Of a stretch of 17,365 nucleotides of DNA, positions 2,217 through 17,365 are shown piece by piece. The position numbers and the translations under genes were made by a program. The notes under the pieces were generated by a model, which was not told the origin of the DNA, did not search any database, and was given only the letters and a program-made list of their open reading frames with translations. The stretch lies in contig JACPHN010000176.1 in NCBI GenBank assembly GCA_016188575.1, positions 1 to 17,365 on the forward strand, in the 5' to 3' direction. Position 1 is the stretch's first letter. Each line of letters opens with the position of its first letter. This DNA comes from Candidatus Schekmanbacteria bacterium. Lineage in GTDB: Bacteria > CSSED10-310 > JACPHN01.

Positions 2217-3104
2217 ATGGAACCTCTAACTGACGTGGCGGGGATGCCGGCCCCGGTGGCGCTCGTCCTTTCGGGCGGCGCCAGCCTCGGGGCTCTGCAG
2301 GTTGGGCAGTTGCGCGCGCTTGCGGAGGCTGGGCTGGCGCCGGACTTGATCGTCGGGACTTCCGTCGGCGCTATCAATGGCCTGTTCATGGCGCAGGGGT
2401 TTACCCGTGACCGGGTCGAGGCGCTCGCATCGGTATGGTGCGCCCTGCGAAAGCAGGACGTCTTTGGCGCGCTGGGGCTCAGCAGCGCCCTGCGTCTGGC
2501 CCGGGGCGGGCAGACTCTGGCCACGTCCGCGCGGCTCGAGCATCTGCTCCGCCGCGAGCTCCCTGCGAGCCAGGCCGAGCTCACGGTGCACGCCCACGTG
2601 GTCGCCGTCGACTACTTGACCGGCGAGGCCGTTCTCCTCGGGGATGGCAATCCGCGGCGCAACGCTCTCGCCAGTGCCGCCATCCCCAACGTCTTCCCGG
2701 CCGTGGACATCAACGGCCGGCTCCTGGTCGATGGCGGTATCTCCGCCAATGTTCCCGTGTTGCCCGCGGCGCGGCTCGGAGCGCGGACGATCATCGTGCT
2801 CGACACCGGCTATCCCTGCGCTCTTGCCAGACCGCCCGCGGGAATCGTGGCCGGGATCCTTCATACCATGACTCTCACTCTCCGCAGCCAGGTGCACAGC
2901 GCGTTGCCGGCGCTCGCCAGAGACCATTTCGTCGTTTACCTGCCCGCGCCGTGTCCATTGTCCACGGGGCTCCACGATTTCTCCCGGACCCCAGAGCTCA
3001 TCAGCACCGGTTACGAGCTCGCCCGCGCCTTTCTGCGGAACCTCGAGGTGCGCGGCCCGGGAGTCCATGGTCATCCACACTTTCACCAGGAGACCGAAGC
3101 ATGA
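2217..3104 (+). CDS. Patatin-like phospholipase family protein
   Basis: This is a 295-residue single-domain patatin, the bacterial lipid acyl hydrolase family with a Ser-Asp dyad. The oxyanion-hole motif GGASLG is at residues 20-25, the nucleophile elbow GTSVG at 47-51 (Ser49), and the catalytic Asp in VDGG at 171-174 (Asp172). No signal peptide is visible, so a cytosolic or membrane-associated enzyme is expected. The ATG at 2217 is chosen because AGGGGAG lies about eight bases upstream; the same frame is open further upstream without such a site. Its stop codon overlaps the next start (ATGA at 3101-3104), so it is translationally coupled to the NrtS-like gene and then to arsS. The natural substrate cannot be read from the sequence. 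In this context a role in remodelling membrane lipids, perhaps arsenolipids, is only a guess. Confidence 0.9.
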   Translation: MEPLTDVAGMPAPVALVLSGGASLGALQVGQLRALAEAGLAPDLIVGTSVGAINGLFMAQGFTRDRVEALASVWCALRKQDVFGALGLSSALRLARGGQTLATSARLEHLLRRELPASQAELTVHAHVVAVDYLTGEAVLLGDGNPRRNALASAAIPNVFPAVDINGRLLVDGGISANVPVLPAARLGARTIIVLDTGYPCALARPPAGIVAGILHTMTLTLRSQVHSALPALARDHFVVYLPAPCPLSTGLHDFSRTPELISTGYELARAFLRNLEVRGPGVHGHPHFHQETEA

Positions 3105-3456
3105 TGTCTGGCCACGACCGACTCCCCGTAACCACCGCCCCAACCCTCTCCCCAAACTCTGCCGAGCCCAGGGAGGGCGGCGGCATTCCGCCCATTGCGG
3201 ACCTTTGCCGCGTGGTAACGCGGCGGATGATTCTTCGCAGCGTGCTTACCGCGGTAGCCGTCGGCGGGCTGCTCTTCGCCATCAACTCGGGAGCAGCGGT
3301 CGCCAGGGAAGGCATGACGAGCGGCCTGGCAACCAAGCTGCTGTTGACCATGTTGATCCCATTCCTGGTGTCACTCTCATCCGCGGCCATCACCCGCCAC
3401 GAGATGATCACGCAAACGGCGGCCGCCGGCGCCTGCGCCGAGCGGAGGGTCCGGCG

Positions 3457-3460
<4 letters not shown>
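3101..3460 (+). CDS. nrtS: NrtS-like small membrane protein (putative nitrate/nitrite transporter)
   Basis: The product is 119 residues long, with a polar N-terminal 40 residues and two hydrophobic segments at about 44-62 and 79-97. The pattern ILRSVLTAVAVGGLLFAIN, then a short linker with a second helix LLLTMLIPFLVSLSSA, matches NrtS. NrtS is a family of very small two-helix proteins linked to nitrate/nitrite uptake in cyanobacteria and now annotated widely. The N-terminal extension is longer than in most relatives. It overlaps the patatin stop (ATGA) and the arsS start (ATGA at 3457-3460), so the three genes are clearly one operon. An actual nitrate role is doubtful in this arsenic-related setting; it may move another oxyanion. 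Family assignment comes from motif recall. Confidence 0.65.
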
Positions 3461-4470
<1,010 letters not shown>

Positions 4471-4471
4471 T

Positions 4472-4489
4472 TGGCACCAGGAATCGAAC
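4472..4489 (-). other. 18-nt match to a tRNA 3' end (possible attachment-site core)
   Basis: Just after the arsS stop, the minus strand reads GTTCGATTCCTGGTGCCA, which looks like a T-loop, half the T-stem and an acceptor end with CCA. The bases before it do not pair as a T-stem and no other tRNA arms are present, so this is not a tRNA gene. Such fragments often mark the attachment site left by tyrosine integrases, but no integrase is in the window. It may be chance. Confidence 0.25.
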
Positions 4490-4536
4490 GGTAGACGCTT
4501 GGAGGGCGGGCCGCGAGACGACCAAAGGGGTGAATC

Positions 4537-5676
4537 ATGACTCTTGAAGCACTGCTCATCACGGCTGCCGTCGCCGCGCTGGCGTACGCGAACGGCGCGA
4601 ATGACGTCTCGAAGGGCATCGCGACGCTCGTGGGCAGCGGTGTCGCCAGCTACCGGCATGCCATGCTCTGGGGGGCAGTGTGGACCGGCGTGGGCGGCTG
4701 GCTGGGGGCGATCTTCGCAAAAGGCATGCTGACCACTTTCGGCGCTGGACTCCGCGGCCCCGGCGTGGCGCCGACACTTGCCGGGTCGCTGGCGGCGCTT
4801 GTAGGTGCGACCGGCTGGGTGTTGGTAGCGACGCGCACCGGCCTCCCCGTATCCACGACCCACGCGATCGTGGGCTCGCTCGGCGGCGTCGCAGTCCTGG
4901 CGTACGGCGCGGGTGGGATGCAATGGAGCACGTTCGGCGGCAAGATTCTGCTCCCGCTGTTGATGAGCCCGCTTCTCGCGCTCGCCTTCACCGGCCTTGC
5001 CCTACGGGCGGGGGGGCCCCGAACCAGTGGTAGCAACGCGGCCGCCGACTGCCTGTGCGCTGAGGTAGCCGGGGTGGCCGTCGCCGAGGCGGGAGCTCCT
5101 GGCGTCGCGGCTGCTGTCCTGCTCCCCGGAGCTCCGGAGCTGCGGGTCGCTCGCGGATCGGTCGGGAGCTGTGCGACCGAGCACCCGCAGGCGCTGCGCC
5201 TGACCCTTGGTCATGCGCACTGGGCAACAAGCGGCGCGACAAGCCTGGCACGCGGCATGAACGACGCCCCAAAGATTGTCGCGTTGGCGCTCGCAGCTTC
5301 CGCTTTGGGCGCGGGAGTCACGGCGTCGACGGCCCTGCTGTTCGCGCTCGTTACCGCCGGAATGGTCGCTGGTAGCGTGCTCGCCGGTCGGCGCGTGACC
5401 CGTGTCCTCGCCGAGCGCGTGACGCCGATGGACAATCGCGAGGGTTTCGCGGCAAACCTCGTGACGGCCGCGCTGGTCATCACGGGTGCCGTGCATGGGC
5501 TCCCGATGTCGACCACGCACGTCGCGGCCGGAGGCATCTTTGGCGCCGGAGCCGCGCGCGGGACGCTCGACACCCGGACACTCCGGGACATCGTCCTGGC
5601 CTGGGTGGTGACGTTGCCCGCCGCGGGGCTGCTGGGCGCGGCGAGCTACGCGATCGCAAGCATCTTTTCCAGTTGA
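4537..5676 (+). CDS. pit: PiT-family inorganic phosphate (anion) permease
   Basis: This 379-residue polytopic membrane protein shows the PiT internal duplication. The signatures GANDVSKG (20-27) and GMNDAPK (240-246) each begin a repeat, and the matching GLPVSTTHAIVG (102-113) and a later GLPMSTTHVAAGG close them. A hydrophilic, Cys- and Ala-rich loop (about 161-230) separates the halves, as in other bacterial members. PiT carriers take up metal-phosphate with protons and also admit arsenate. A Shine-Dalgarno-like AAAGGGG lies seven bases before the ATG. The gene follows arsS by 66 bp on the same strand, so it may be co-transcribed. That would fit phosphate or arsenate supply to the arsenic pathway, though this is inference from position. 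Confidence 0.9.
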   Translation: MTLEALLITAAVAALAYANGANDVSKGIATLVGSGVASYRHAMLWGAVWTGVGGWLGAIFAKGMLTTFGAGLRGPGVAPTLAGSLAALVGATGWVLVATRTGLPVSTTHAIVGSLGGVAVLAYGAGGMQWSTFGGKILLPLLMSPLLALAFTGLALRAGGPRTSGSNAAADCLCAEVAGVAVAEAGAPGVAAAVLLPGAPELRVARGSVGSCATEHPQALRLTLGHAHWATSGATSLARGMNDAPKIVALALAASALGAGVTASTALLFALVTAGMVAGSVLAGRRVTRVLAERVTPMDNREGFAANLVTAALVITGAVHGLPMSTTHVAAGGIFGAGAARGTLDTRTLRDIVLAWVVTLPAAGLLGAASYAIASIFSS

Positions 5677-6034
5677 TTCGCCCCCACGACGCCTGATGCA
5701 CATTGTCACCTGCCCGCGGGCGCTGCGGCGCGACAGTGATAGTATCGTCTGCCGGCGCGGAATCCCGGATTGTGCCGGGGGTGACGGAAACAACGTGCAT
5801 CGCGCGTACGGTGGTAGAGGTAATCACCTCCGCGAGGCGCGGCTCGCTCACGGCAGCGTGACGAAGTCACTGATCAGCGCTGATACCTGCATGACCTGCC
5901 CAGTCTGCGTCCTGGTCAGGCCGCGTTCCTTCAGGGTGGGCATCACGAGGCCGACCGACGCCCGCGATGATGGAGTGACAGACGGCGCCGCGGATGCCAT
6001 ACTACAAGAACCGTACTCAAGACTTCGAGAGACG
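5677..6034. other. Intergenic stretch, possible decayed coding remnant
   Basis: These 358 bases between the permease and the KamA-like gene hold no gene I can support. The minus strand has protein-like words (MPTLKERGLTRTQ, QVMQVSALISDFVT, then a stop and SEPRLAEVITST) that may be the remains of an older gene. I do not recognise the family. The plus frame is open into the KamA-like gene, but the peptide upstream of 6035 does not resemble that family. Confidence 0.3.
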
Positions 6035-7441
6035 ATGGCTCCAAGCCCGACCATTCAGCCCAAGACGTATACAGTCTACACGCGCCGCAACTTCGAGCGG
6101 CTACCCGCGCTCCGGCGGCTCTCACCCGGCGAGCTGCTCTCCATGAAGGCAGTCTCCGCGGTTCTCCCGTTTCGAGTCAATAACTACGTCGTCGATGAGC
6201 TCATTCGCTGGAACCGAGTGCCTGATGACCCGATCTATCGCTTGACCTTCCCGCACCGTGAAATGCTCGCCCCGGACGCGATCGCGCGGCTGGAGAGCAT
6301 GATCAGCTCGGGGACATCCGAAGCCGCGCTGCACGCCTGCGCGCGCGAGATACAGGCGCAGCTCAATCCTCACCCAGCGGGTCAGATGGAGCTCAACGTG
6401 CCGTTCGTGGACGGCAAGCCGTTGCTCGGAATGCAGCACAAGTATCGAGAGACGGTCTTGTTCTTCCCGAGCGACGGTCAGACGTGCCACGCCTATTGCA
6501 CCTACTGTTTCCGCTGGCCGCAGTTCGTGGGCATCGACCACCTCAGGTTCGCGAGCCGCCAGGCGGAGTCGCTGGCCGCCTACGTCGGCGCGCACCCGGA
6601 GGTCAATGGCGTGCTGATTACCGGCGGCGATCCGTTGATCATGAAGACCGCGGTGCTGCGCAAATATGTCGAACCGCTCCTCGCGTCGCACCTGGAGCAC
6701 CTCGTCAGCATCCGCATCGGGACGAAGGCGCCGGCCTACTGGCCATACCGGTTTCTCACCGATCCGGACGCCGATGACCTGATTCGCCTTTTCGAGCAGG
6801 TGCGGGGAGCCGGCCGCCATCTGGCAATTATGGCGCACTATTCCCATCCGCGTGAGCTCGAGACCCCGGCTGCTCAGGCCGCGCTCCGCCGTATCCTGAC
6901 GACGGGTGCCGTCGTTCGCTGTCAGGCGCCACTCGTTCGGCGGGTCAACGACGACCCGCAGGTGTGGGCAGACCTCTGGCGCCTCGAGGAGCAGCTCGGA
7001 GCGGTTCCGTACTACATGTTCGTCGAGCGTGACACGGGGCCAAAGGGCTATTTCGAGGTGCCGCTCGCGCGGGCTTGTGACATCTTTCGTACGGCATCTC
7101 GCCGCGTGAGCGGCCTGGCCCGAACCGTTCGCGGACCGTCCATGTCGGCGACGCCAGGAAAGGTCGAGGTCGTGGGTAGGGCGAACGCCGGAGGCGAGGA
7201 CGTTTTTGTCTTGCGATTCATTCAAGGACGGAACCCCGATTGGGTGGGGCGTCCATTCTTTGCAGCATGGGACGAGCATGCCACCTGGCTCGACCAGCTT
7301 CGGCCGGCCTTCGGCGAGACGGAGTTTTTCTGGGAGCCGGAAATGCGGGAAATCCGCGAGGCGCACCAGGCTCCGGCATGGGGGCTGCGCGTGCCGAAGC
7401 GCCGGAAGCTCGTGCTTTTCGGCCACGTCGAGTGGGAGTAG
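6035..7441 (+). CDS. KamA-family radical SAM protein (lysine 2,3-aminomutase-like)
   Basis: This 468-residue protein has the radical SAM motif CHAYCTYCF (Cys151, Cys155, Cys158), then LITGGDPL (194-201) and IRIGTKAP (227-233), as in lysine 2,3-aminomutase relatives. The N-terminal block LPFRVNNYVVDELI and DDPIYRLTFP is shared with a distinct long KamA-like clade. True lysine aminomutases bind PLP through a Lys in PGGGGK and hold the substrate with Asp residues just before it. Here the equivalent stretch reads GPSMSATPGKVEV (Lys376), so the PLP lysine may remain but the glycine run and the substrate Asp pair are not evident. A different substrate, or no mutase activity, is likely. The ATG at 6035 is chosen because similarity begins there; the ribosome site is weak (GAGAG). 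An aminotransferase pseudogene follows beyond an inserted IS, so the two may once have formed one operon. Confidence 0.85.
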   Translation: MAPSPTIQPKTYTVYTRRNFERLPALRRLSPGELLSMKAVSAVLPFRVNNYVVDELIRWNRVPDDPIYRLTFPHREMLAPDAIARLESMISSGTSEAALHACAREIQAQLNPHPAGQMELNVPFVDGKPLLGMQHKYRETVLFFPSDGQTCHAYCTYCFRWPQFVGIDHLRFASRQAESLAAYVGAHPEVNGVLITGGDPLIMKTAVLRKYVEPLLASHLEHLVSIRIGTKAPAYWPYRFLTDPDADDLIRLFEQVRGAGRHLAIMAHYSHPRELETPAAQAALRRILTTGAVVRCQAPLVRRVNDDPQVWADLWRLEEQLGAVPYYMFVERDTGPKGYFEVPLARACDIFRTASRRVSGLARTVRGPSMSATPGKVEVVGRANAGGEDVFVLRFIQGRNPDWVGRPFFAAWDEHATWLDQLRPAFGETEFFWEPEMREIREAHQAPAWGLRVPKRRKLVLFGHVEWE

Positions 7442-7487
7442 CCGCGGCTGGCGCCAGCGCACATCTACCGGACGGGCGTGCAGTGCT

Positions 7488-7516
7488 CCATCCATAGCGC
7501 GCTAGCGCTTGGGTGG
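7488..7516 (+). repeat. Left-end hairpin of the IS605-type element
   Basis: A stem of seven pairs (CCATCCA with TGGGTGG, one G-T pair), a bulged T, five more pairs (AGCGC/GCGCT) and a GCTA loop. It matches the right-end hairpin in its outer strand but has compensating changes in the inner stem. Y1 transposases recognise end hairpins of this kind. It also lies 47 bp after the KamA-like stop and could double as a weak terminator, with a T7 tract 15 bases downstream. Confidence 0.65.
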
Positions 7517-7614
7517 TGGTGAAGCACGCCTCTTTTTTTCTCTTTCTTCGTCTTGGCCTTGATGTTCAATGTCTTGGTCTTGCATTGACATGAGCGTGAT
7601 GCTAGAGTGATCGT

Positions 7615-8910
7615 ATAGCAATCGTCAAGCGTAAGGTAACCTATCGCCTGTACCCGACAAAAGTTCAGGCCGCGATGCTGTGGCAGGTTTTCGTGCTGCG
7701 TCAGCGCCTGTACAATGCCGCGCTCGAGCAGCGGATTTGGGCCTGGAAACAAAACGGCGTGTCTCTGACCTTCGCCGACCAGTGCAAGGAGCTCACCGAG
7801 CTGCGGGCCGACGATCCCGAGTATGCTGCTCTCAATGCCCAATCCTGCCAGGTAACACTCAAGCGCTTGGATCTCGCGTTCCAGGCCTTCTTTCGCCGGG
7901 TTAGGGCCGGACAGACGCCAGGCTTTCCGCGCTTCAAGTCGCTGCGCCGCTTCACAGGCTGGGGGTACAAGACACACGGCGACGGCTGGAAGCTGAACCA
8001 AGGGCTCAAGTTGAAGCACGGTTCCATGCGCATCTCTGGCGTGGGCGAGATCAAGATCCGTGGCGAAGCTCGTGACGCTGGCGAACCAAAGACTGTGGAA
8101 ATCCAGCTCAAGCGCGGCCGTTGGTTCGCCTCAGTGACGCAAGACTGTGAGCCACAGCGCGCGCACGGCACTGAACGTATCGGTTTCGATTGGGGCATCG
8201 AACGGTTCGGGAACCCTCCCACCGCCTGCGGCGGCGGGCGCCGCCCTAGACCTCGCTGCGCTCGGTTCCTCACCTTCGATGATGGCACCGGCGTTGAGAA
8301 TCCGCGGTTTCTGAGGAAGTCCGAACGCCAGCTCAAGGCCCGGCAGCGAGTGGTGTCCCGCAAAAAACGCGGATCGAAGAACCGGCGAAAGGCCGTGGCG
8401 TGTCTAGGCCGCGAGCATGAACGCATCGCGAACCGGCGCACGGACTTCTTGCATCAACAGTCCGCAAAGCTCATCGCGCGCGCCGAGCTCCTTGCCACGG
8501 AACAACTTGCGGTCGCCAACATGACCCGCAGCGCTCGCGGTACGGTCGAAGCCCCTGGCAAGAACGTCCGGCAAAAGGCCGGTTTGAATAGGAGTATCCT
8601 TGACGGTGCCCCGTCGGCGTTTGTCAGCATGGTACGCACCAAAGCGGCAGAAGCTGGATGCGTGCTCGTGGAAGCCCCGACGCGGAAGATCAAACCGTCG
8701 CAGTCCTGTCCGGCGTGTCCTCGGCAACAAAAGAAGACGCTTGCGGAGCGGGTCCACCGCTGCGCATGCGGCTGCGTGTTGCCGCGCGATCAGGCCAGCG
8801 CACAGGTTTGCTTGCATTATGCGTTAGCCCTTTCGGGGCCAGGAACTGGCCCAGGTGTAGAGGGGGCTCTGCCCCCGTCGAAGCACGAAACTCCATCCAT
8901 AGCGGCGTAG
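7615..8910 (+). CDS. tnpB: TnpB RNA-guided nuclease of the IS200/IS605 family
   Basis: The frame gives about 431 residues. The N-terminus AIVKRKVTYRLYPTKVQ is the usual TnpB opening but is preceded by ATA (7615) where ATG is expected. The first ATG, at 7675, would remove about 20 conserved residues, so translation from ATA or loss of the start must be considered. RuvC residues, numbered from 7615: Asp192 in IGFDWGIERF, Glu296 in LLATEQLAVANM, Asp392 in VLPRDQASAQ. The zinc finger is CPAC (365, 368) paired with CAC (383, 385). A 60-nt in-frame insertion (8209-8268) adds 20 residues rich in Gly, Arg and Pro just six residues after the first catalytic Asp. TnpB cuts DNA at the element's target motif using an RNA from the element's 3' end; the last hairpins overlap this gene's 3' end. 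Confidence 0.85.
   Translation: MAIVKRKVTYRLYPTKVQAAMLWQVFVLRQRLYNAALEQRIWAWKQNGVSLTFADQCKELTELRADDPEYAALNAQSCQVTLKRLDLAFQAFFRRVRAGQTPGFPRFKSLRRFTGWGYKTHGDGWKLNQGLKLKHGSMRISGVGEIKIRGEARDAGEPKTVEIQLKRGRWFASVTQDCEPQRAHGTERIGFDWGIERFGNPPTACGGGRRPRPRCARFLTFDDGTGVENPRFLRKSERQLKARQRVVSRKKRGSKNRRKAVACLGREHERIANRRTDFLHQQSAKLIARAELLATEQLAVANMTRSARGTVEAPGKNVRQKAGLNRSILDGAPSAFVSMVRTKAAEAGCVLVEAPTRKIKPSQSCPACPRQQKKTLAERVHRCACGCVLPRDQASAQVCLHYALALSGPGTGPGVEGALPPSKHETPSIAA
8209..8268 (+). repeat. 60-nt in-frame insertion in tnpB flanked by a 6-bp direct repeat
   Basis: CGGTTC occurs at 8203-8208 and again at 8263-8268, exactly 60 nt apart. The bases between are GC-rich and palindromic (GGCGG-GCG-CCGCC near 8233-8245, and GGTTC-GG-GAACC at the left junction). 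The encoded peptide GNPPTACGGGRRPRPRCARF has no counterpart in usual TnpB proteins, which run directly from the DWG motif's ERF to LTFDDG. It resembles the small palindromic elements that enter genes in frame, such as Rickettsia RPEs, though it is a different sequence. Confidence 0.6.
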
Positions 8911-8922: not shown

Positions 8923-10231
8923 CAGTAGCTCATCTGAACACCAACGTGCGCGGTCTGCCGATCTCCCCGACGGTCGCCATCAGCTAGCTGAGTGACCTCC
9001 TGCGACCGCAGGGACAGCGAATCTTCAAGCCAGGGCTCGGTCAGTCGCCCTTCCCGGTTCCGACTACAGTGGTCGAGGCGCTGCGGGCAAACGCCCATCA
9101 GAAGGCGTATCTCCCCGTCTTGGGCCTGCCGGCCCTGCGCGAGGCCTCGCCGAGTATCATCGGCGTAATCACGGCGTCGCATGCAACGCGGATGACATCA
9201 TCATCGGGCGTGGCTCCAAGGCGCTGATGTTTCTGCTCCAGGTCGTCTACTGCGGCGAGCTCATCGCGCCGGCGCCGGCCTGGGTGTCCTACGTTCCGCA
9301 GGCGCGCATCGTGGGGCCTACGGTCCGCTCGCTCCCTACGCGACTCGAGGACGGACGGCGGGTCGACCCGGGCACCCTCGAACGCCTCTGCCGCGAGCTC
9401 CCAGACCAGCCTCGCATGCTGATTCTCAACTATTCCAACAACCCGACCGGCACGACGTCCTCCCCAGCCGAGCTCGCCGCGCTCGCCGCCATCGCCAGCC
9501 GGGCTGGCGTCATCATCCTTTCCGACGAAATATGCGGGGAGCTGTGCTACACTGGAGCACACAGCTCAGTCGCTACCCTCTATCCGGAGGGAACGATCCT
9601 GAGCAATGGCCTGAGCAAGTGGTGCGGCGCCGGCGGCTGGCGGCTCGGAACGTTTGTTTTCCCGAGCTCTCTACGCTGGCTTCTCGATGCGATGGCCGTG
9701 GTGGCTTCCGAAACCTACACCACGACGAGCGCGCCCATTCAGTACGCGGCAGTGAAGGCATTCCGGGGGGATTCGCAGCGAGCGCTACCTGTGGAGAGCG
9801 CGTCGCATCCTCGCGGCGCTCGGCCGCGAGAGCGCGGCGAGACTGCGAGCGGCCGGGCTGCGGCTCGCGGAGCCCGCGGGGGGGGGTTTTACCTGTTTCC
9901 GGATCTGGGCCAGCACCGCGCCGCTCTGTCGCATCGGGGAATCCTGACGGCCTCCGCGTTGACCACCAGGTTGCTCGAAGAGACCGGCGTGGCGGTGCTG
10001 CCGGGCAGCGCGTTCGGTCAAGACGAATCGGAGCTGTCGGTCCGCATCGCTCATGTCGACTTCGATGGGCTGCGCGCGCTGGCGGCGCTCGGGCGCGAGG
10101 CGCCGGATTAGGCCATCGACCTGGCCTTTCTCACCGCCCACTGCGCCGATGTGCTCGAGGCCATCGACCGCATCTGTGGCTGGCTGGCCGCAAGCGACGG
10201 CCTCGGCCTGGCAGGACCCTTGACACAGTAG
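8919..10231 (+). pseudogene. Class I/II aminotransferase, degraded
   Basis: This is a PLP-dependent fold-type I aminotransferase. It shows LNTNVRGLPISPTVAIS and GLGQSPFPVPTTVVEAL at the N-terminus, then IIIGRGSKALMFLLQ, LILNYSNNPTG, LSDEICGE, the PLP-lysine motif SNGLSKWCGAGGWRLG (Lys codon at 9617), and LPGSAFGQDE at the C-terminus. The lesions are a TAG at 8985-8987, a one-base loss near 9145-9154, opposite frame changes at a G6 run (9765-9770) and a G9 run (9878-9886), and a TAG at 10109-10111, after which family-like sequence (LAFLTAHCADVLEAIDRICGWL) continues to the TAG at 10229-10231. Its apparent ATG at 8919 lies inside the IS right-end hairpin, so the IS probably replaced the native start region. 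The G-run changes could be sequence errors; the stops less likely so. Confidence 0.85.
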
Positions 10232-10354: not shown

Positions 10355-11371
10355 TCAGTCCTCGATCGCGCTGTGTGGGTCTTGACCTGCACCGGCCCGC
10401 CGCACCATTCCGTAGCTCTTCAGCCGCCGCCACAGCGTATTCTCGCCGATGCCAAGCGCTTTGGCGGTGGCCTTCCGGTTGCCGCCGAGGCGCTCGAGCG
10501 ATGCCAGGATGTGCCGCCGTTCGACCTCGGCAAGCGTGAGGACGGGGGCGCCACCGGCCGAGGCTGGTTGTGGCGCCGGCGCGGTTCCACGTACCTCGGG
10601 CGGGAGGTCGCCGAGCTCGATGCGCGGCTTTCCCTCGGCCAGAACCACTGCCCGCTCGATCGCGTTTTCGAGCTCGCGGATATTCCCCGGCCACGCGTAG
10701 CGGTGGAACGCGTCGAGCACGTCCGAGGAGAGCGCGCACGGCCCGCAGTGGTTTTCGGTGCAGGTGCGGGCAACCAGCGCGCGGGCTAGCGGCAAGAGGT
10801 CCTCCGGCCGGTCGCGCAGTGCCGGAATCTCCAGCGGCACCACGCGGAGGCGGAAATACAGATCCTGGCGAAATGCGCCGGCCAAGACCAGCGCGTGCAG
10901 ATCGCGGTGTGTGGCGGCGATGATCCGTACGTCCACGGGCACGTCCCGGTTCGTCCCGACGGGACGGACCGCGCGCTCCTGAATGGCACGCAGCAGCCGC
11001 ACCTGCACCGCGGGCGTGGTCTCGCCGATTTCGTCGAGGAAGATCGTGCCCTGCTCGGCTGCCTCAAAGAGCCCCGCGCGAGCAGACTCGGCCCCGGTAA
11101 ACGCCCCCTTCGCGTGGCCGAACAGCTCGCTTTCGAGAAGGCCCTCCGGAAGCGCCCCGCAGTCGATCGCTACGAAGGGGCCGGCAGCCCGCCGCGAATG
11201 GGCGTGGATGTAGCGCGCCAGTCGCTCCTTGCCCGTCCCGCTCTCGCCGGTGACGAGCACCGTTGCTTCTGTCGGGGCGGCGCGATCGGCCAGCTCGATC
11301 ACCCGACGCATGGCGGGGCTGCGAGCGACGATCGCGGGTGCGTCCAGAGCCTTTGCAGCGCGGGGGTTCAT
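10355..11371 (-). CDS. Sigma-54-dependent activator, AAA+ plus Fis HTH, no sensor domain
   Basis: This 338-residue bacterial enhancer-binding protein has only the core. It carries Walker A GESGTGKE (42-49), the sigma-54 contact loop GAFTGA (89-94), Walker B IFLDEIGE (110-117), the [10 protein letters not shown] region (about 227-236), and a Fis-type helix-turn-helix, [24 protein letters not shown] (split in the family as helix-turn-helix), near 296-319. There is no receiver, GAF, PAS or V4R domain. Unusually, where related proteins have an ordinary helix before WPGN, this one has a C-x4-C-x2-C cluster with a His (Cys204, His208, Cys209, Cys212; bases 10736-10762). This is a plausible soft-metal site. 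The gene is divergent from merT. ATG at 11371 is chosen; an in-frame TTG sits just before it. It probably activates merT-merA-merP from the dyad at 11388 and represses itself from the same site. Confidence 0.9.
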
Positions 11372-11380
11372 CAATATGGA

Positions 11381-11408
11381 ATTATGTCTTGACCAGTCTG
11401 GAAGTCAA
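11381..11408 (-). promoter_or_regulatory. Sigma-70-type promoter for the activator gene
   Basis: On the minus strand, TTGACT (11408-11403) and CATAAT (11386-11381) are separated by 16 bp; each box matches consensus at five of six positions. The -10 box ends only nine bases before the ATG at 11371, so the transcript is expected to be leaderless or nearly so. The promoter is covered by the 22-bp dyad. Confidence 0.6.
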
Positions 11409-11409
11409 G
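11388..11409. promoter_or_regulatory. 22-bp dyad, putative activator binding site (UAS/operator)
   Basis: CTTGAC, 10 bases, GTCAAG: perfect 6-bp arms. The centre (11398) is about 115 bp upstream of the merT promoter's -12 box, a usual distance for the enhancer of a sigma-54 activator. The same bases overlap the -35 box and spacer of the activator's own promoter, which would allow self-repression, as XylR does at its own promoter. No second copy is seen nearby. Confidence 0.5.
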
Positions 11410-11499
11410 CCCCGCCATTTTGGAGCTCGCGGTCGCCGGCCGATCCGCGCCTCGCTCCGAAGTCACGCACCGGAAGCGGTTCTCGGCACGACGCAGAGA

Positions 11500-11515
11500 T
11501 GGCACTGATTGTGCA
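11500..11515 (+). promoter_or_regulatory. Sigma-54 promoter (-24/-12) for merT-merA-merP
   Basis: TGGCAC at 11500-11505 and TGCA at 11512-11515 give the invariant GG and GC with the required 10 bases between them. The only departure from TGGCAC-N5-TTGCA is a G in place of the T before TGCA. Transcription would begin near 11525 and leave a leader of about 50 bases before the merT ATG. Confidence 0.65.
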
Positions 11516-11576
11516 TTGGTGTCGCGGGCCGCGAGCGAAATCGGCCCTGACAAGCACTCACAAGAAGGAGAGCCAC

Positions 11577-12011
11577 ATGGGCTCACATAATGCTGACGCC
11601 TGCGGAAGCCAGGTAGTATTGGGCGACCTGGAACAAGCTGCACGTGAGAGCAGCGACCGGCGCCGGTCCCTGGCGCTCGGCGCCGGCGCGGTCGGCTCCG
11701 CGTTCGTGGCCTCGGCCTGTTGCGTTGGTCCGCTCGTGCTCACGCTGCTCGGGATCGGCGGTGGTGCGCTGCTCGTGGGGCTCGAGCCCTATCGGCCGCT
11801 GCTCACCGGCTTGACCGCAGTGTTCCTGGGCGGCGCATTCTGGCTTCGATACCGGAAGCTGCGCGCCGCCGCCAGGGCCGGCGGCGGCAGCGCGTGCGCG
11901 TGCCCGGCGCCGAGGGCGAGCAAGGTGGCGCACATCGCGCTGTGGGCTACCACGGCGCTGGTCCTGGCGGTTCTCGCGTTTCCCTACATCGCCCCGCTGA
12001 TCTGGGGCTGA
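11577..12011 (+). CDS. merT: Mercuric ion transporter MerT
   Basis: This 144-residue inner-membrane protein brings Hg(II) into the cytoplasm for MerA. A hydrophobic segment (about 33-62) carries the vicinal cysteine pair in SACCVGPLVLTLLGIGG (Cys48-Cys49). The family words GLEPYRPLLTGLT (68-80) follow, then a cytoplasmic loop with CAC (Cys107, Cys109), and a last helix LVLAVLAFPYIAPLIWG. The N-terminus is about 20 residues longer than in classic Tn21/Tn501 MerT. The ATG at 11577 has GAAGGAGAG five bases upstream. It is first in a three-gene plus-strand operon, with 16 bp to merA. The presumed control is the -24/-12 promoter and the divergent activator; no MerR gene or MerR-type operator is present before it. 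Confidence 0.93.
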   Translation: MGSHNADACGSQVVLGDLEQAARESSDRRRSLALGAGAVGSAFVASACCVGPLVLTLLGIGGGALLVGLEPYRPLLTGLTAVFLGGAFWLRYRKLRAAARAGGGSACACPAPRASKVAHIALWATTALVLAVLAFPYIAPLIWG

Positions 12012-12027
12012 GCGAAAGGAGTCGAAC

Positions 12028-13467
12028 ATGGTCATCAGCAACTTCGTGGACCGGACCATCAATCGCGGTGAAGAGCTGGACCTGCTCGTCGTCGGGGCCG
12101 GCTCGGCGGGATTTGCCGCCGCCATCCGGGCGGCCGAGCTCGGCGCCCGGGTGGCCCTGGTCGAGCAGGGCGGACTGGGCGGAAGCTGCGTCAATGTCGG
12201 TTGCGTGCCGTCGAAGACGCTGATGCGCGCCGCCGAAGCCCATCACCGGGCCGGTCACAGCGCCTTCGCGGGGATTCGCAGCCATCCGGAGGTGCCGGAT
12301 TTCGCGGCCGTCATCGAACAGAAACGGCTGCTCGTCGCCGAGCTCCAGCAGGCCAAGTACTGGGATGTGCTCGCGTCGTACCCCTCCATCGCACTGCTTC
12401 GCGGTGCGGCTCGGTTTCTTCCGGCCGGGAGCGTCACCGTCGCCGGCGAGCCCGTGCGCGCCCGCAAAGTCGTGATCGCGACGGGCGCGGCTCCGTGGAT
12501 GCCGCCGATCCCCGGGCTTGCTGCCTCGGGGTTTCTGACGAGCACGACCCTGATGGAGCTCGAGGACCTGCCGCGGCGCCTCATCGCCATCGGCGGTGGC
12601 GCCGTCAGCCTCGAGCTCTGCCAGACCTTCGCCCGCTTCGGTAGCCAGGTCACCGTGCTCGAAGCTCTGCCGCGGATCCTTCCGGGAGAAGACGCCGAGG
12701 TGAGCGAGGCGCTCGCGGCCTACCTGCGCGAAGAAGGCATTGTGGTGCGCACCGGCGTGCGGATCGCGGAAGCTCTGGGCGGAGTCGGCGCGCACCGCGT
12801 CGCGATCGAGGATGGCGAGCGACGCCTCGTCATCGAGGGAGACCGGCTGCTTGTCGCTGCAGGGCGCAGGCCACGCACCTCCGGAATCGGCCTGGAAGAA
12901 GCGGGAATCGAGCTTGGGCCACAGGGCAACGTGATTGTCGATGAGCACCTGAGGACCTCGCGGGCTGATGTCTACGCGGCCGGCGACGTCATCGGCGACC
13001 CGGCCCTGGTCTACGTGGCCGCGTATGCGGGAGGCATGGCCGCCGAGAATGCTCTGAACGGCGACGTGCGGCGGTACGATCTGACAAGCGTGCCGCGCGT
13101 CACGTTCACGGCTCCCGCCGCCGCGGCGGTGGGCCTCACCGAGGCCGAGGCGCGAGCGCGGGGCGTCGCGGTGGCGGTATCCAGACTGCCGATGAGCCAC
13201 GTGCCGCGGGCGATTGCCGCACGTGACACCCGCGGCTTCATCAAGCTAGTCGCGGACGAGAAGACGGGCCACCTCGTCGGCGCCCACATCCTGGCGCCCG
13301 AGGCGGGCGAGCTGATCGCACAGGCGGCCATGGCCATGCGTTTCAGCATCCGCACCGAAGAGCTAGCAGCGTTGCTTTACCCGTATCTGACCAATGCGGA
13401 AGGTCTGAAGCTCGCCTGTCAGGCCTTCCAGAAAGATGTGGCGCGACTGTCGTGCTGCGCCGCATGA
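12028..13467 (+). CDS. merA: Mercuric reductase MerA (without NmerA domain)
   Basis: This 479-residue flavoprotein reduces Hg(II) to Hg(0) with NADPH in the cytoplasm. The FAD motif VVGAGSAGFAAAIRA (about 21-35) leads to the redox disulfide GGSCVNVGCVPSK (Cys54, Cys59). The second dinucleotide motif is AIGGGAVSLEL, and the FAD-binding AAGDVIG is in place. The C-terminal part has the mercury-ligand tyrosine region YPYLTNAEGLKLA and the terminal vicinal pair LSCCAA (Cys476-Cys477), which set MerA apart from lipoamide dehydrogenases. There is no N-terminal MerP-like domain; a separate HMA-domain lipoprotein is encoded next. The ATG at 12028 follows AAAGGAG by seven bases. Confidence 0.95.
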   Translation: MVISNFVDRTINRGEELDLLVVGAGSAGFAAAIRAAELGARVALVEQGGLGGSCVNVGCVPSKTLMRAAEAHHRAGHSAFAGIRSHPEVPDFAAVIEQKRLLVAELQQAKYWDVLASYPSIALLRGAARFLPAGSVTVAGEPVRARKVVIATGAAPWMPPIPGLAASGFLTSTTLMELEDLPRRLIAIGGGAVSLELCQTFARFGSQVTVLEALPRILPGEDAEVSEALAAYLREEGIVVRTGVRIAEALGGVGAHRVAIEDGERRLVIEGDRLLVAAGRRPRTSGIGLEEAGIELGPQGNVIVDEHLRTSRADVYAAGDVIGDPALVYVAAYAGGMAAENALNGDVRRYDLTSVPRVTFTAPAAAAVGLTEAEARARGVAVAVSRLPMSHVPRAIAARDTRGFIKLVADEKTGHLVGAHILAPEAGELIAQAAMAMRFSIRTEELAALLYPYLTNAEGLKLACQAFQKDVARLSCCAA

Positions 13468-13484
13468 GCAGGAGGTAATCGACA

Positions 13485-13841
13485 ATGGAGCCCGCAATGC
13501 ATCCAGCCAACAAGGTAGCTCGCGATCACGTTGCGTGGCGCGCGCTCCTCGTGCTCGCTGTGGCGGCAGCGGTCGGTCTCGCGGCGTGTGCGTGCAATGA
13601 CCGCGCCACGCCCCCGCCGCCTGCCTCGGCGGCCGAGGCGGCGTTCTCCGTTCAGGGGATGACCTGCGCCTCGTGTGCGGTCGCGGTCCGCGCGGCCGCC
13701 AAGGGCGTGCCCGGGGTCTATGACGCGCGCGCCGACGCCGAACAGGGCAGCGCGTGGGCGAGCTACGATGCGCAACGCACGACCGTCCAGGCCATCGCGC
13801 GCGCGATCAGCGACGCCGGCTACCCGGCCACGGCGCAATAA
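13485..13841 (+). CDS. merP: MerP-like HMA-domain lipoprotein
   Basis: The product is 118 residues. An N-terminal signal with a long alanine/leucine core ends in a lipobox LAAC (Cys35), so the protein should be a lipoprotein. A proline-rich linker leads to a heavy-metal-associated domain (about 54-115) with the metal site GMTCASC (Cys61, Cys64) and a family-typical end, ISDAGYPA. MerP normally is a soluble periplasmic protein that hands Hg(II) to MerT; this one is likely tethered to a membrane. AGGAGGT lies eight bases before the ATG at 13485, a strong ribosome site, and the gene follows merA by 17 bp. The extra Cys at position 37 beside the lipid Cys is notable. It could also be called a generic HMA lipoprotein, but the operon supports mercury. 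Confidence 0.88.
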   Translation: MEPAMHPANKVARDHVAWRALLVLAVAAAVGLAACACNDRATPPPPASAAEAAFSVQGMTCASCAVAVRAAAKGVPGVYDARADAEQGSAWASYDAQRTTVQAIARAISDAGYPATAQ

Positions 13842-13976: not shown

Positions 13977-14424
13977 TACCTCCGCGGGGTTGTCCTTGTG
14001 TCCGGCCACGATGTAGATCTCGTCACACTCGACGGTGCCTTCGAGCTTGATGGGTCGCTTGGCCTCGACGATGCGTTCTCGGAGCTGGTCCGTCATCTTC
14101 CGCGGGTCGTCCTTGCCGAGTGCCGAGTCCCAGCTCGCGGGCGATCTGCTGATTCGACAGGTTCAGCCCCATCAGATAGAGGCACAGCACCCAGACTCGA
14201 AGCGGCTGATGGTGCCCGGCGAAAATCGTCCCCGGCAGGTCGTCGAAGCGCCGCTCACAGGCCTTGCACAGGTAGCGCTGCCGCTCCCGCTGAGTCTCGT
14301 CTCGCCCTTGCCTGGTCACTTGTTCCGAGCCGCGGTCCGGGCAGCGGGCTCCGTCTGGCCAGCGCATCTGCCGCACCGTCTCGAACCACCTCGCGTCGTC
14401 GATGCGAGTCTGGATGTTTGTCAT
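13977..14424 (-). pseudogene. IS1595-family transposase, truncated and frameshifted
   Basis: The minus strand reads MTNIQTRIDDARWFETVRQ, an N-terminal zinc-ribbon region (CPDRGS, where relatives have CP-CGS, then YLCKACERRFDDLPGTIF), then VLCLYLMGLNLSNQQIARELGL. A frameshift follows, and the sequence resumes as RKMTDQLRERIVEAKRPIK and GTVECDEIYIVAGHKDNPAEV, the start of the ISXO2-like DDE domain with its first Asp. The shift is caused by an exact 7-bp tandem duplication (GCCGAGT at 14115-14121 and 14122-14128); removing one copy restores the frame. The rest of the catalytic domain is missing, cut off beside the inverted-repeat structure. One zinc Cys is also lost. Confidence 0.85.
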
Positions 14425-14497
14425 GCCGCAAGTATCGCCATGGGGAGCGCGCCGCGCAACCCCGCCTCCTCTCTCCAGAGCACCGGGAGCCACCGAT

Positions 14498-17365
14498 CTA
14501 CTCGACGCGGGCCAGCTCCCCGGATTCCGTAAGGTTGGTATCACCGCCGGCGAATCCAATGGAGTCCCGAGCCGTCCAGCGCCCCACCGCCGCGTCGTAG
14601 TCCCGGGCGCCAAACCGCACCATGCCCGTATCCGAATCGTAGAGCCCGCCCGCGAATCCGAACGGCTGAAAGCCAGGGTTGGTGTCGGTCAAGACGCGCC
14701 CCCCAGGCGTCGTAGTCCAGCCGTTGCGCCACGGCGCCGGTGGCCGCGTTCACTACCATGCGCACGCTCCCGAGGTGGTCGCTCAGGATGCGGCAAGTCG
14801 TGCCGTCGCGCACCATCGCGTCCGGCACGTGGGGACGGCTGGCGTAGACGAACACTGACACAACGGCACCGCTGCCGTCGAGCTCCGCCACGGGTTCGAG
14901 CGCGTCCTGATAGAGCCACGCCTGTTGCAAAACCCCGTTGATCTTCTTGCCGACGCGCCGCCCGACTCCGTCGACCTCGTAGGTGATCGCCGGTCCGTCG
15001 GGGAGGGACACCGAACGGAGGTTGCCGAGCACGTCGAACACGTAGCCCGTCGTCCCCTTCGGTCCCGTCTTGCCGGCGAGCTGCCCGGCGGCGCCGAAGG
15101 CGCAGGTCGTGTCCCCGTAGGCCGCCAGCCGATCCTGTCCGTCGTAGCTCGCCGCGATCGTCCCCGCGGGCGTGGTTTCCGACAGTCGGTTGCCGTTGGC
15201 GTCGTAGGTCCAGCTCGCCGCGGGTGCCCCGTCTTCCGTCACCGCCGCGAGGCGCCCTGCCGCATCGTACGCGTAGGCCACATCAAGCGCCTCTCCCTGC
15301 ACCGTCTCCTGCTTGGCGACAATCCGGCCGAGGTCGTCGCGCTGATAGGTCACGGCGTACAGCGCGTCGCCTCCGGCGGACGCCGAGTAGGAGCTCAGGT
15401 CTCCGTAGCTATCGTACGCGTACGTGTCCGTGACGCCGCCGAGCGCCGTGCCGCTCAGGAAACCCGTCGCCGCGTCGCGCGTCAGAGTCACCGGCCCGGC
15501 CCCGGTCACCAGCCCGTCATCGTCGTAGGTGTACGCGGTCTCGTTGCCGCCGTTGGCACGCCGCGAGCTGATCCGGAAGTCGTCGTTCCAGGTGACGTCG
15601 ACACTGCCGGCCACGGTCCCGGTCCACGCCACACCCAGAGGCAGCACCCCGTCCGAGCTCAGCGTCAGGTCGGTGCCGTCGGGTCCGGCGATCACGGCGA
15701 GCCGGCCGGTGTCGCCGTCGTGGGTGACAGCGATCTCTCTGCCATCCGGAAGCTCCAGGCGCGCGAGACGACCTCCGGCGTTGTATTGAAGGTTCACCGC
15801 ACGACCTAGCGCGTCGGTCACCGGTTCCGCACGACGGTCGAGATCGTAGCTCGCGGTGGTGCTCCATCTGTCAGGGCCGGGTTCGGTGGTCGCATCCGGC
15901 GCCGGCGGGTCGTACGACGCCGCCAGGTCCACCGGCGTGTAGGTGAAGAGGTGCGCCTCCCGGTCCGGCGGCGTCACCGCGGTCACGTTCGCGCCGGCAT
16001 CCCACGCGAGCCCGATCGCGCCGCCATCGGGAGCCGTAACCCCGAGCGTCCTGCCGACGAGGTCGTAGGCAAACGCCGTGACCCTCTCGAGCGGGTCCCG
16101 TGACCGACGCCACGTTCCAACGAAGATCGTAGGCGACCGTGGTCGTCCGCGTGCCCTGGCTCACCCCGGTCAGTCTGCCCTGCGTGTCCCACGTGAAGCT
16201 CGCGGGCAGCATCCCGGCGCGGGACGACTCCACGATGCGGTCCTCGCCGTCGAGCGTCACGGTAGCCGTCCGCCCCAGTGGCGATGTCAGGGTCCACCGC
16301 CGGGCTGCGGCGTCATAGACGGCCTGCCAGGTCCGCCCGCCGATCGTCGCGGCTTGCCGCAGCTCGGTCGCGCTGAGCGGGCCGCCCGGGTCGGCGAGCG
16401 TCGCCTGCCGGTCGATCGTCGCCACCCGCTCGCGGCCTCCCGGCATGCGCGCGGCGATCCGCGAGGTGTACGCCGCCTCCGTGCCCCACCGCGGGTCCGC
16501 GGCGATCTCCGTCGTCACTGCCCTCCCCGACGGCGCCGTCACTTCGGTGCGCCCTGACCGGTAGGTCTCGGTGCGCGTCACCAGGCCCGCAGGGTCGGTC
16601 ACGACGCTCACCGAGTGCTCGTTCCCCAGCTTCTCCGAGCGGTAAGTCGTCGTCAACCCCTCCGCCGTCGTCAGCGACACCTCGTGGTCGTTCGTGGCCG
16701 CGATCAGCGCGCGCGCGAGCCGCTTGCCGCCACCCGCGGCGCCTTCGGCGTAGACCAGCAGCCCGAGCTCGTCGTACTGATAGGTCGAGGTGAAGCCACG
16801 CGGCGTCGTGAAGCTGGCGAGCAGGTCACCGCTGTCGTAGGTCATGGCCGACACCCCGCCCGCCTCGTCGGTCACCGACGCGAGCCGGCCGCGGGCGTCG
16901 ACCGCCAGCGCAGTCCGGTGGCCGTTCGGGGAGACGATGGCAGTCGGGACGCCGCCGGCGTCGCGTGCGATCGCCGTGGCGTTGCCCGCGCCATCGGTCA
17001 CGCCGGTGAGCCGGTTCTCCGCGTCGTACGAGAACGTCCAGGTGACCCGGCCCGTCAGCCCGTCGAGCGTGCGCAGATGTCGGCCACGCGACGAGAAGAC
17101 GTACACCTCGCCACCGTCGCGCGAAACGACGGCGATTTCGTCCGTGCCGGTGCCAGCGATGGAGCGGATCTCGCGGATCCGGCTGTTGCCGCGGTCGGCG
17201 ACGTAGATGCGCCCGTTCGGCGCAACCGTCACGCCTGCCGGCGAGTCGAAGGTCGCGACCGCGGCGAGCTCACCATCTCCGGCGGTACCCGCCGCGCCGG
17301 ACCCGGCGACCGTGGCGAGCTTGCGACTCTGCTCCACGGCGCGCACGCGCCCCTGTTCGGTATCG
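14498..17365 (-). pseudogene. NHL/YD-repeat (Rhs, teneurin-like) protein, partial and frameshifted
   Basis: Open to the window edge at its 5' end. The order is an NHL-type repeat (ATVAGSGAAGTAGDG, then GVTVAPNGRIYVADRGNSRI), then a junction GGEVYVFSSRGRHLRTLDGL, then a long run of YD repeats (such as FSYDAENRLTGVTDGAGN). Last comes the Rhs-core end [20 protein letters not shown], and [28 protein letters not shown]. Single-base changes break it near 16088-16100 and at a G6 run near 14701-14706, giving three frames. The conserved end NLYG also appears one T short. No toxin tip follows; the sequence breaks off beside the IS1595 remnant. Intact relatives form beta-barrel shells, either carrying toxins or on the cell surface. 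The regular frame before and after each shift suggests recent decay or sequence error. Confidence 0.85.

Follow-up and report, generated by a model that had tools for sequence, protein, structure and literature searches.

Among the 272 mercury-resistance (mer) operons surveyed by Boyd and Barkay in 2012, merR is present in 195, arsR in 22 and merD in 78, and the portions of that survey available to us describe no type of regulator beyond MerR, ArsR and MerD (PMC3466566). A 2021 update on mer does not mention sigma factors (PMC8261052). We analyzed 17,365 nucleotides of a contig from Candidatus Schekmanbacteria (JACPHN010000176.1; this whole stretch is called the window below), in which a merT-merA-merP operon is divergent from a gene encoding a short sigma-54 activator. 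It is very likely that this activator controls the operon through sigma-54, as a preliminary description of the same DNA had proposed. This assessment is based on the recurrence of the arrangement in other genomes, a cysteine motif in the activator, paired dyads, a -24/-12 element, and the absence of the dyad pair and of a good element of this kind from other merT loci. We also consider it likely, with less confidence, that the whole locus works as a one-component, sigma-54-dependent mercury switch. The preliminary description knew of no well-described mer system with such logic, and we too found none in the literature searched; papers retrieved on mercury resistance and sigma-54 were all unrelated, and because subscription papers were thinly covered, novelty is provisional. 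With this proviso, the mer operon and the bacterial enhancer-binding protein are known kinds, and what appears to be new is their combination and the position of the sensor.

The locus resembles the MerR-regulated mer operons of Tn501 and Tn21 in its target genes, in a regulator gene divergent from merT and in an operator that lies over the regulator's own promoter. A three-cysteine Hg(II) site, as in MerR, is also expected in the activator. However, the window has neither a MerR protein nor a MerR operator, its enhancer is distant, and a sigma-54 promoter with ATP hydrolysis would take the place of the DNA untwisting by which MerR acts at a sigma-70 promoter. With the ArsR-regulated mer operons of Sulfolobus and Streptomyces, the locus would share a cytoplasmic, metal-responsive regulator beside mer, but ArsR represses an ordinary promoter and has a fold unrelated to that of the activator. 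The genes of the locus, and the promoter predicted for the operon, are as follows:

10355..11371, minus strand: short sigma-54 activator, 338 amino acids from the ATG at 11371 (a TTG at 11374 is an alternative start)
11500..11515, plus strand: predicted -24/-12 (sigma-54) promoter TGGCACTGATTGTGCA, with a predicted start at about 11526
11577..12011, plus strand: merT, mercuric transport protein (PF02411, E 6.7e-18, above cut-off)
12028..13467, plus strand: merA, mercuric reductase (TIGR02053, 526 bits; cut-off 454)
13485..13841, plus strand: gene for a MerP-like HMA protein (PF00403, E 1.7e-12)

Gene calls were made with Pfam and NCBIfam profiles, and they bear out the gene order given in the preliminary description, with the third protein being MerP-like by its HMA domain, since it scores 56 bits against TIGR02052, below the cut-off of 92.55. 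This protein carries GMTCASC in the HMA domain and, by eye, a lipobox-like signal, GLAAC. MerT has a CC motif in its first membrane helix. MerA lacks an N-terminal HMA domain, and inspection of its translation reveals the CVNVGC active site and a C-terminal CC, so that the features by which a mer operon is recognized (merA with these motifs and a transport gene) are present.

The activator was likewise correctly described. It consists of an AAA+ domain (PF00158, E 6.7e-69) with an intact GAFTGA loop, AAA_lid_14 and a Fis-type helix-turn-helix (HTH) domain, HTH_8 (PF02954, E 8e-13). Pfam detects no sensor or regulatory domain N-terminal to the AAA+ domain, where the open frame extends for only about 10 codons, and the receiver domain that is required for two-component NtrC-type response regulators is absent. 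The host genome encodes one RpoN (PF04552, E 3.7e-63). Thus, the AAA+ domain with Walker motifs and GAFTGA, the Fis-type HTH and the host RpoN that characterize bacterial enhancer-binding proteins are all found; the further hallmark, a -24/-12 promoter with paired dyads upstream, is recognized here by sequence and conservation. An AlphaFold model of the activator (34-row alignment, mean pLDDT 88) resembles the AAA+ structures of ZraR, FleQ and FlrC, and ZraR is the nearest solved structure by sequence too. ZraR, a zinc-linked two-component sigma-54 regulator, is thus similar in AAA+/HTH structure and in having a metal-linked output, but its kinase partner senses the metal, it has a receiver domain, and in an alignment it has no cysteines in the lid.

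Short activators of this type recur beside mer genes. We scanned about 85,000 species genomes, which was not exhaustive, and found further members by profile searches that covered the phylum and class of locus L011 (Myxococcota) and the phylum of Desulfofustis. Among the matches listed, there are two close relatives, in loci L010 (68% identity) and L011 (70%), and all others listed are below 60%. Both of these loci are mer loci, and the other 78 listed loci have no merT in the DNA that was fetched. In total, we define a subfamily of 17 activators including that of the window, the 16 others being mostly from Myxococcota, with orthologs at 59-73% identity. At least 13 of the 17 adjoin mer genes: 12, including the window's, are directly divergent from merT (in L105, from merP-merT), and one more, that of L010, lies within a mer cluster. 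L190 has merP and a partial merA nearby. In L010 the activator is the last gene of a run of merP, zf_CopZ/BFD, lipoprotein, redoxin, merB and activator genes, and this run is itself divergent from merT-merA. The unit occurs in at least three phyla, given the Myxococcota members, the window genome's own small phylum and L194, from the Desulfofustis phylum. No second genome with an ortholog was found among the 8 searched from the window's own phylum. Plasmids in PLSDB contained no relative closer than 51% identity, the top ones being ZraR-like, and no viral contigs with MerT were found.

In a phylogenetic tree, the 17 activators and those of L111 and L112 form one group (support 100/98), within which a clade (99/94) unites 15 of the 17. 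The position of the L105 and L193 activators, outside L111/L112, is weakly supported. Given this placement, one gain of the cysteine motif followed by loss is indistinguishable from two gains, and we do not claim a single origin. L111 and L112 lack the motif and have no merT nearby. The cysteine-less activator of L112 (3718-6867) has a MerA-like flavoprotein (34% identity) in its vicinity, a neighborhood that may reflect an ancestral target of subfamily members. Another kind of short sigma-54 activator (L159 3429-4778, genome G226; 41% identity, no cysteine motif) is convergent to a merT-like frame.

TGGCAC-N6-TGCW matches exactly at a single place in the window, which is the -24/-12 element noted in the preliminary description; its GG and GC are 10 bp apart, and it lies 62 bp ahead of the merT start. 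Because near matches are common, a lone match to this pattern is weak evidence. However, in all 12 of the subfamily loci scanned, merT is preceded by an element that keeps the GG-N10-GC spacing exactly and has no more than 3 mismatches, while 7 other merT loci of the same phylum, mostly linked to MerR, have none at up to 2 mismatches.

The preliminary description had also pointed, without coordinates, to a dyad at enhancer distance. The long dyad that is most visible, CTTGAC-N10-GTCAAG (11388-11409), is found only in the window, where its right arm doubles as the -35 box of the activator's predicted sigma-70 promoter. As it is not conserved among relatives, it is ruled out as the enhancer. What is conserved, in nearly all subfamily loci, is another element, TCCA-N3-TGGA, in 2-3 copies at a spacing of 22-24 bp (about 2 helical turns). 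In the window there are three copies, with centers at 11375, 11397 and 11419, i.e., exactly 22 bp apart:

11370..11380: dyad 1, ATCAATATGGA, 2 mismatches to TCCA-N3-TGGA, at the activator start codon
11392..11402: dyad 2, ACCAGTCTGGA, 1 mismatch, within the spacer of the activator's sigma-70 promoter
11414..11424: dyad 3, GCCATTTTGGA, 1 mismatch, with the predicted mer start about 107 bp downstream
11381..11408, minus strand: predicted sigma-70 promoter of the activator, TTGACT-N16-CATAAT, 10/12 consensus matches

Single matches to the pattern at one mismatch occur in the window at chance frequency, so the evidential weight lies in spacing, position and recurrence. The window's best pair was equalled in 0 of 300 shuffles. 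A pair at 22-24 bp is present upstream of the activator in 13 of 16 loci tested; dinucleotide shuffles equalled the pair in 0/300 cases in 11 loci, 4/300 in L110 and 8/300 in L187, where it is important to consider that the window, L010 and L011 are not independent, because the test was designed after viewing those three. By the same test, there is no significant pair at this spacing in L190, L193 or the region preceding the L010 activator. The dyad pair of L010 sits in the merP/merT intergenic region, flanked in both directions by -24/-12 elements (TGGCACCGCCGTTGCT and TGGCCCGGTCGATGCT). Across 26 dyad sites from the loci, the half-sites are nearly invariant and the center is free, a tally that overstates conservation because the sites were chosen by their match to TCCA-N3-TGGA. 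In the 7 other merT loci of the same phylum, no dyad pair was found (5 or more mismatches).

The position of the dyads suggests a second function. In seven relatives (L011, L109, L185, L186, L188, L189 and L191), a TTGCCT-N16/17-(T/C)AnnnT promoter lies in the same register as the activator promoter of the window, one dyad falling within its spacer and the neighboring one immediately beyond its -10 element. Since the dyads overlap the predicted activator promoter in the window and in these seven relatives, occupied dyads should repress the activator gene, and autorepression is probable. In XylR/DmpR circuits, enhancer sites also overlap the regulator's own sigma-70 promoter, but there an N-terminal domain senses aromatic effectors, and the targets are different.

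It could be supposed that the pairing of the two genes is incidental, with mer using another promoter and the activator having another target. Most known mer operons are regulated by MerR (PMC3466566), and the window's genome has 81 matches to sigma-54 activators. However, the divergent pair, the paired dyads and the -24/-12 element recur together in about 10 distinct regulatory regions, no sigma-70 promoter is predicted for the window's merT, and there is no MerR operator; we therefore regard an incidental pairing as very improbable. The preliminary description had named a merR gene elsewhere with a matching operator as a finding that would speak against sigma-54 control. No match to mercury-type MerR in the genome reaches the family cut-off (best 43 bits against 150.85), with the limit that the genome is 94% complete and a merR could have been missed, and no MerR operator match above chance exists in the window. 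On these two grounds, we set aside a MerR acting in trans. No ArsR-type gene was recognized on inspection of the window's open reading frames.

Among 377 genomes of Myxococcota, merT occurs in 30 genomes at 33 places, near which we found 16 MerR-like regulators, 2 ArsR-like regulators and 6 activators of the subfamily, with 9 places unassigned; this split is approximate, because regulators were assigned by tblastn from a single MerR query and a single ArsR query. The merT loci for which tblastn gave none of these three regulators include L144, L156, L161, L163, L164, L166, L168 and L170.

We then consider how mercury might be sensed. The preliminary description did not mention a cysteine motif that makes the activator itself a plausible mercury sensor:

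10736..10762, minus strand: codons for C204-T-E-N-H-C209-G-P-C212, candidate Hg(II) site, from conservation of C-x4-CGPC

The motif C-x4-C-G-P-C is invariant in all 17 subfamily activators. It is located between the first two helices of the AAA+ lid and directly precedes the WPGN-x-REL (sensor II) segment, which is WPGNIREL in the window. In the AlphaFold model, helix 189-206 carries C204 close to its end, and C209 and C212 are in the loop preceding helix 216-224. The motif is missing from every one of the roughly 80 other close sigma-54 activators; L012-L089, the same-genome paralogs examined, L111, L112 and L195 all lack it. Homologs outside the subfamily carry ordinary sigma-54-activator sequence at this position. 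Judging from the adjoining genes and from thiol chemistry, these cysteines probably bind Hg(II) and sense it directly. They would do so in the lid, whereas the cysteines of MerR lie across a coiled-coil dimer, and in the literature searched this position of a sensor is provisionally unreported. The closest parallel there comes from the NifA proteins of alpha- and beta-proteobacteria, sigma-54 activators whose conserved cysteines in the AAA+ region have been proposed to bind metal (PMC10590331). However, NifA senses redox state, contains a GAF domain and places its four cysteines in the AAA+ domain and at the beginning of the linker, while the window activator has three cysteines before the sensor-II segment and mer genes as targets. 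XibR is an NtrC-type regulator that binds iron (PMC5130282).

An activator that consists of AAA+ and HTH domains only also recalls sigma-54 activators that lack a regulatory domain, such as PspF. PspF lacks the cysteine motif and is controlled by a partner protein. By analogy, the window activator could drive mer via sigma-54 but, in the manner of PspF, be intrinsically active and held off by an unlinked partner, with the signal sensed elsewhere, and the lid cysteines, whose C-x4-C-x2-C arrangement could hold zinc, would then be structural. We consider this unlikely. No conserved partner gene was noticed repeatedly next to the activator in these loci, although no systematic search for one was made, and a motif that is confined to a mer-linked subfamily and absent from its nearest relatives is unexpected for a general structural site.

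Several observations weigh against the proposed mercury switch or narrow its basis. The subfamily is small, L011, L108 and L109 have near-identical proteins, and L011 and L108 also have near-identical regulatory regions, so the number of independent cases is below 17. The dyads of L110 are weak, the -24/-12 element is poor in L192, and none is convincing in L187, L190 or L193. No mer gene is present in the DNA retrieved around L187, L192 and L193. The gene divergent from the activator in these three loci is CopZ/BFD-like, by eye in L187 and L193, while the contig of L192 ends inside a zf_CopZ gene (7468-7722), and the ligand there could therefore be another metal. Such neighbors in place of merT raise the possibility that the switch responds, via its cysteines, to thiol or redox stress or to a wider range of soft metals (Cu, Ag, Cd, As), with Hg(II) as merely one inducer. 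Because at least 13 of the 17 activators adjoin mer genes, which serve mercury, and L010 has merB too, we assign this broader specificity little probability. The zf_CopZ/BFD-like [2Fe-2S] proteins recur beside the activator (L010 3343-3843, L192, L187, L193), also where no merT was seen, and may serve these loci as a chaperone for mercury or copper.

For the mercury switch that we favor, the following mechanism can be proposed. Without Hg(II), the activator would sit on the TCCA-N3-TGGA dyads over its own sigma-70 promoter, which would keep its level low, and sigma-54 RNA polymerase would remain at the -24/-12 element as a closed complex. The three cysteines of the loop that joins the first two lid helices, C204, C209 and C212, would bind Hg(II) beside the sensor-II helix. 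This binding might alter subunit packing or ATPase activity, such that the activator assembles on the paired dyads; GAFTGA would then contact the polymerase, and ATP hydrolysis would open the merTAP promoter.

The rest of the window contains genes of other kinds. At 3067-5676 there is arsS, for an arsenosugar biosynthesis radical SAM protein (TIGR04167, 429 bits), followed by a gene for a PHO4-type phosphate transporter, which places arsenic and mercury genes on one 17-kb contig. Next are genes for a KamA-family (lysine 2,3-aminomutase-like) radical SAM protein, whose open frame has a long N-terminal extension (5696-7441), and for a TnpB-like RNA-guided endonuclease (7675-8910; NF040570, 182 bits), with no partner transposase seen nearby. 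Directly downstream of the activator, at 9227-10111, a class I/II aminotransferase lacks its N-terminal part (the profile begins at 94) and is probably a broken gene. An IS1595-type zinc-ribbon fragment (14023-14613) and adjoining RHS-repeat-like minus-strand frames, apparently shifted (14541-17346), are a possible insertion scar downstream of merP.

If the switch works as proposed, it would represent a further mode of mercury-resistance control, one that is silent when off and needs no partner protein. Having a metal site within the AAA+ motor would offer a simple handle on the gating of nucleotide hydrolysis in sigma-54 activators, and the system could supply an orthogonal part for mercury biosensors. 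We lean toward the broader view that it exemplifies a new class of direct metal sensor, in which an Hg(II) site in the AAA+ lid would gate the ATPase without a sensor domain or partner, and which may replace MerR at mer operons in several phyla.

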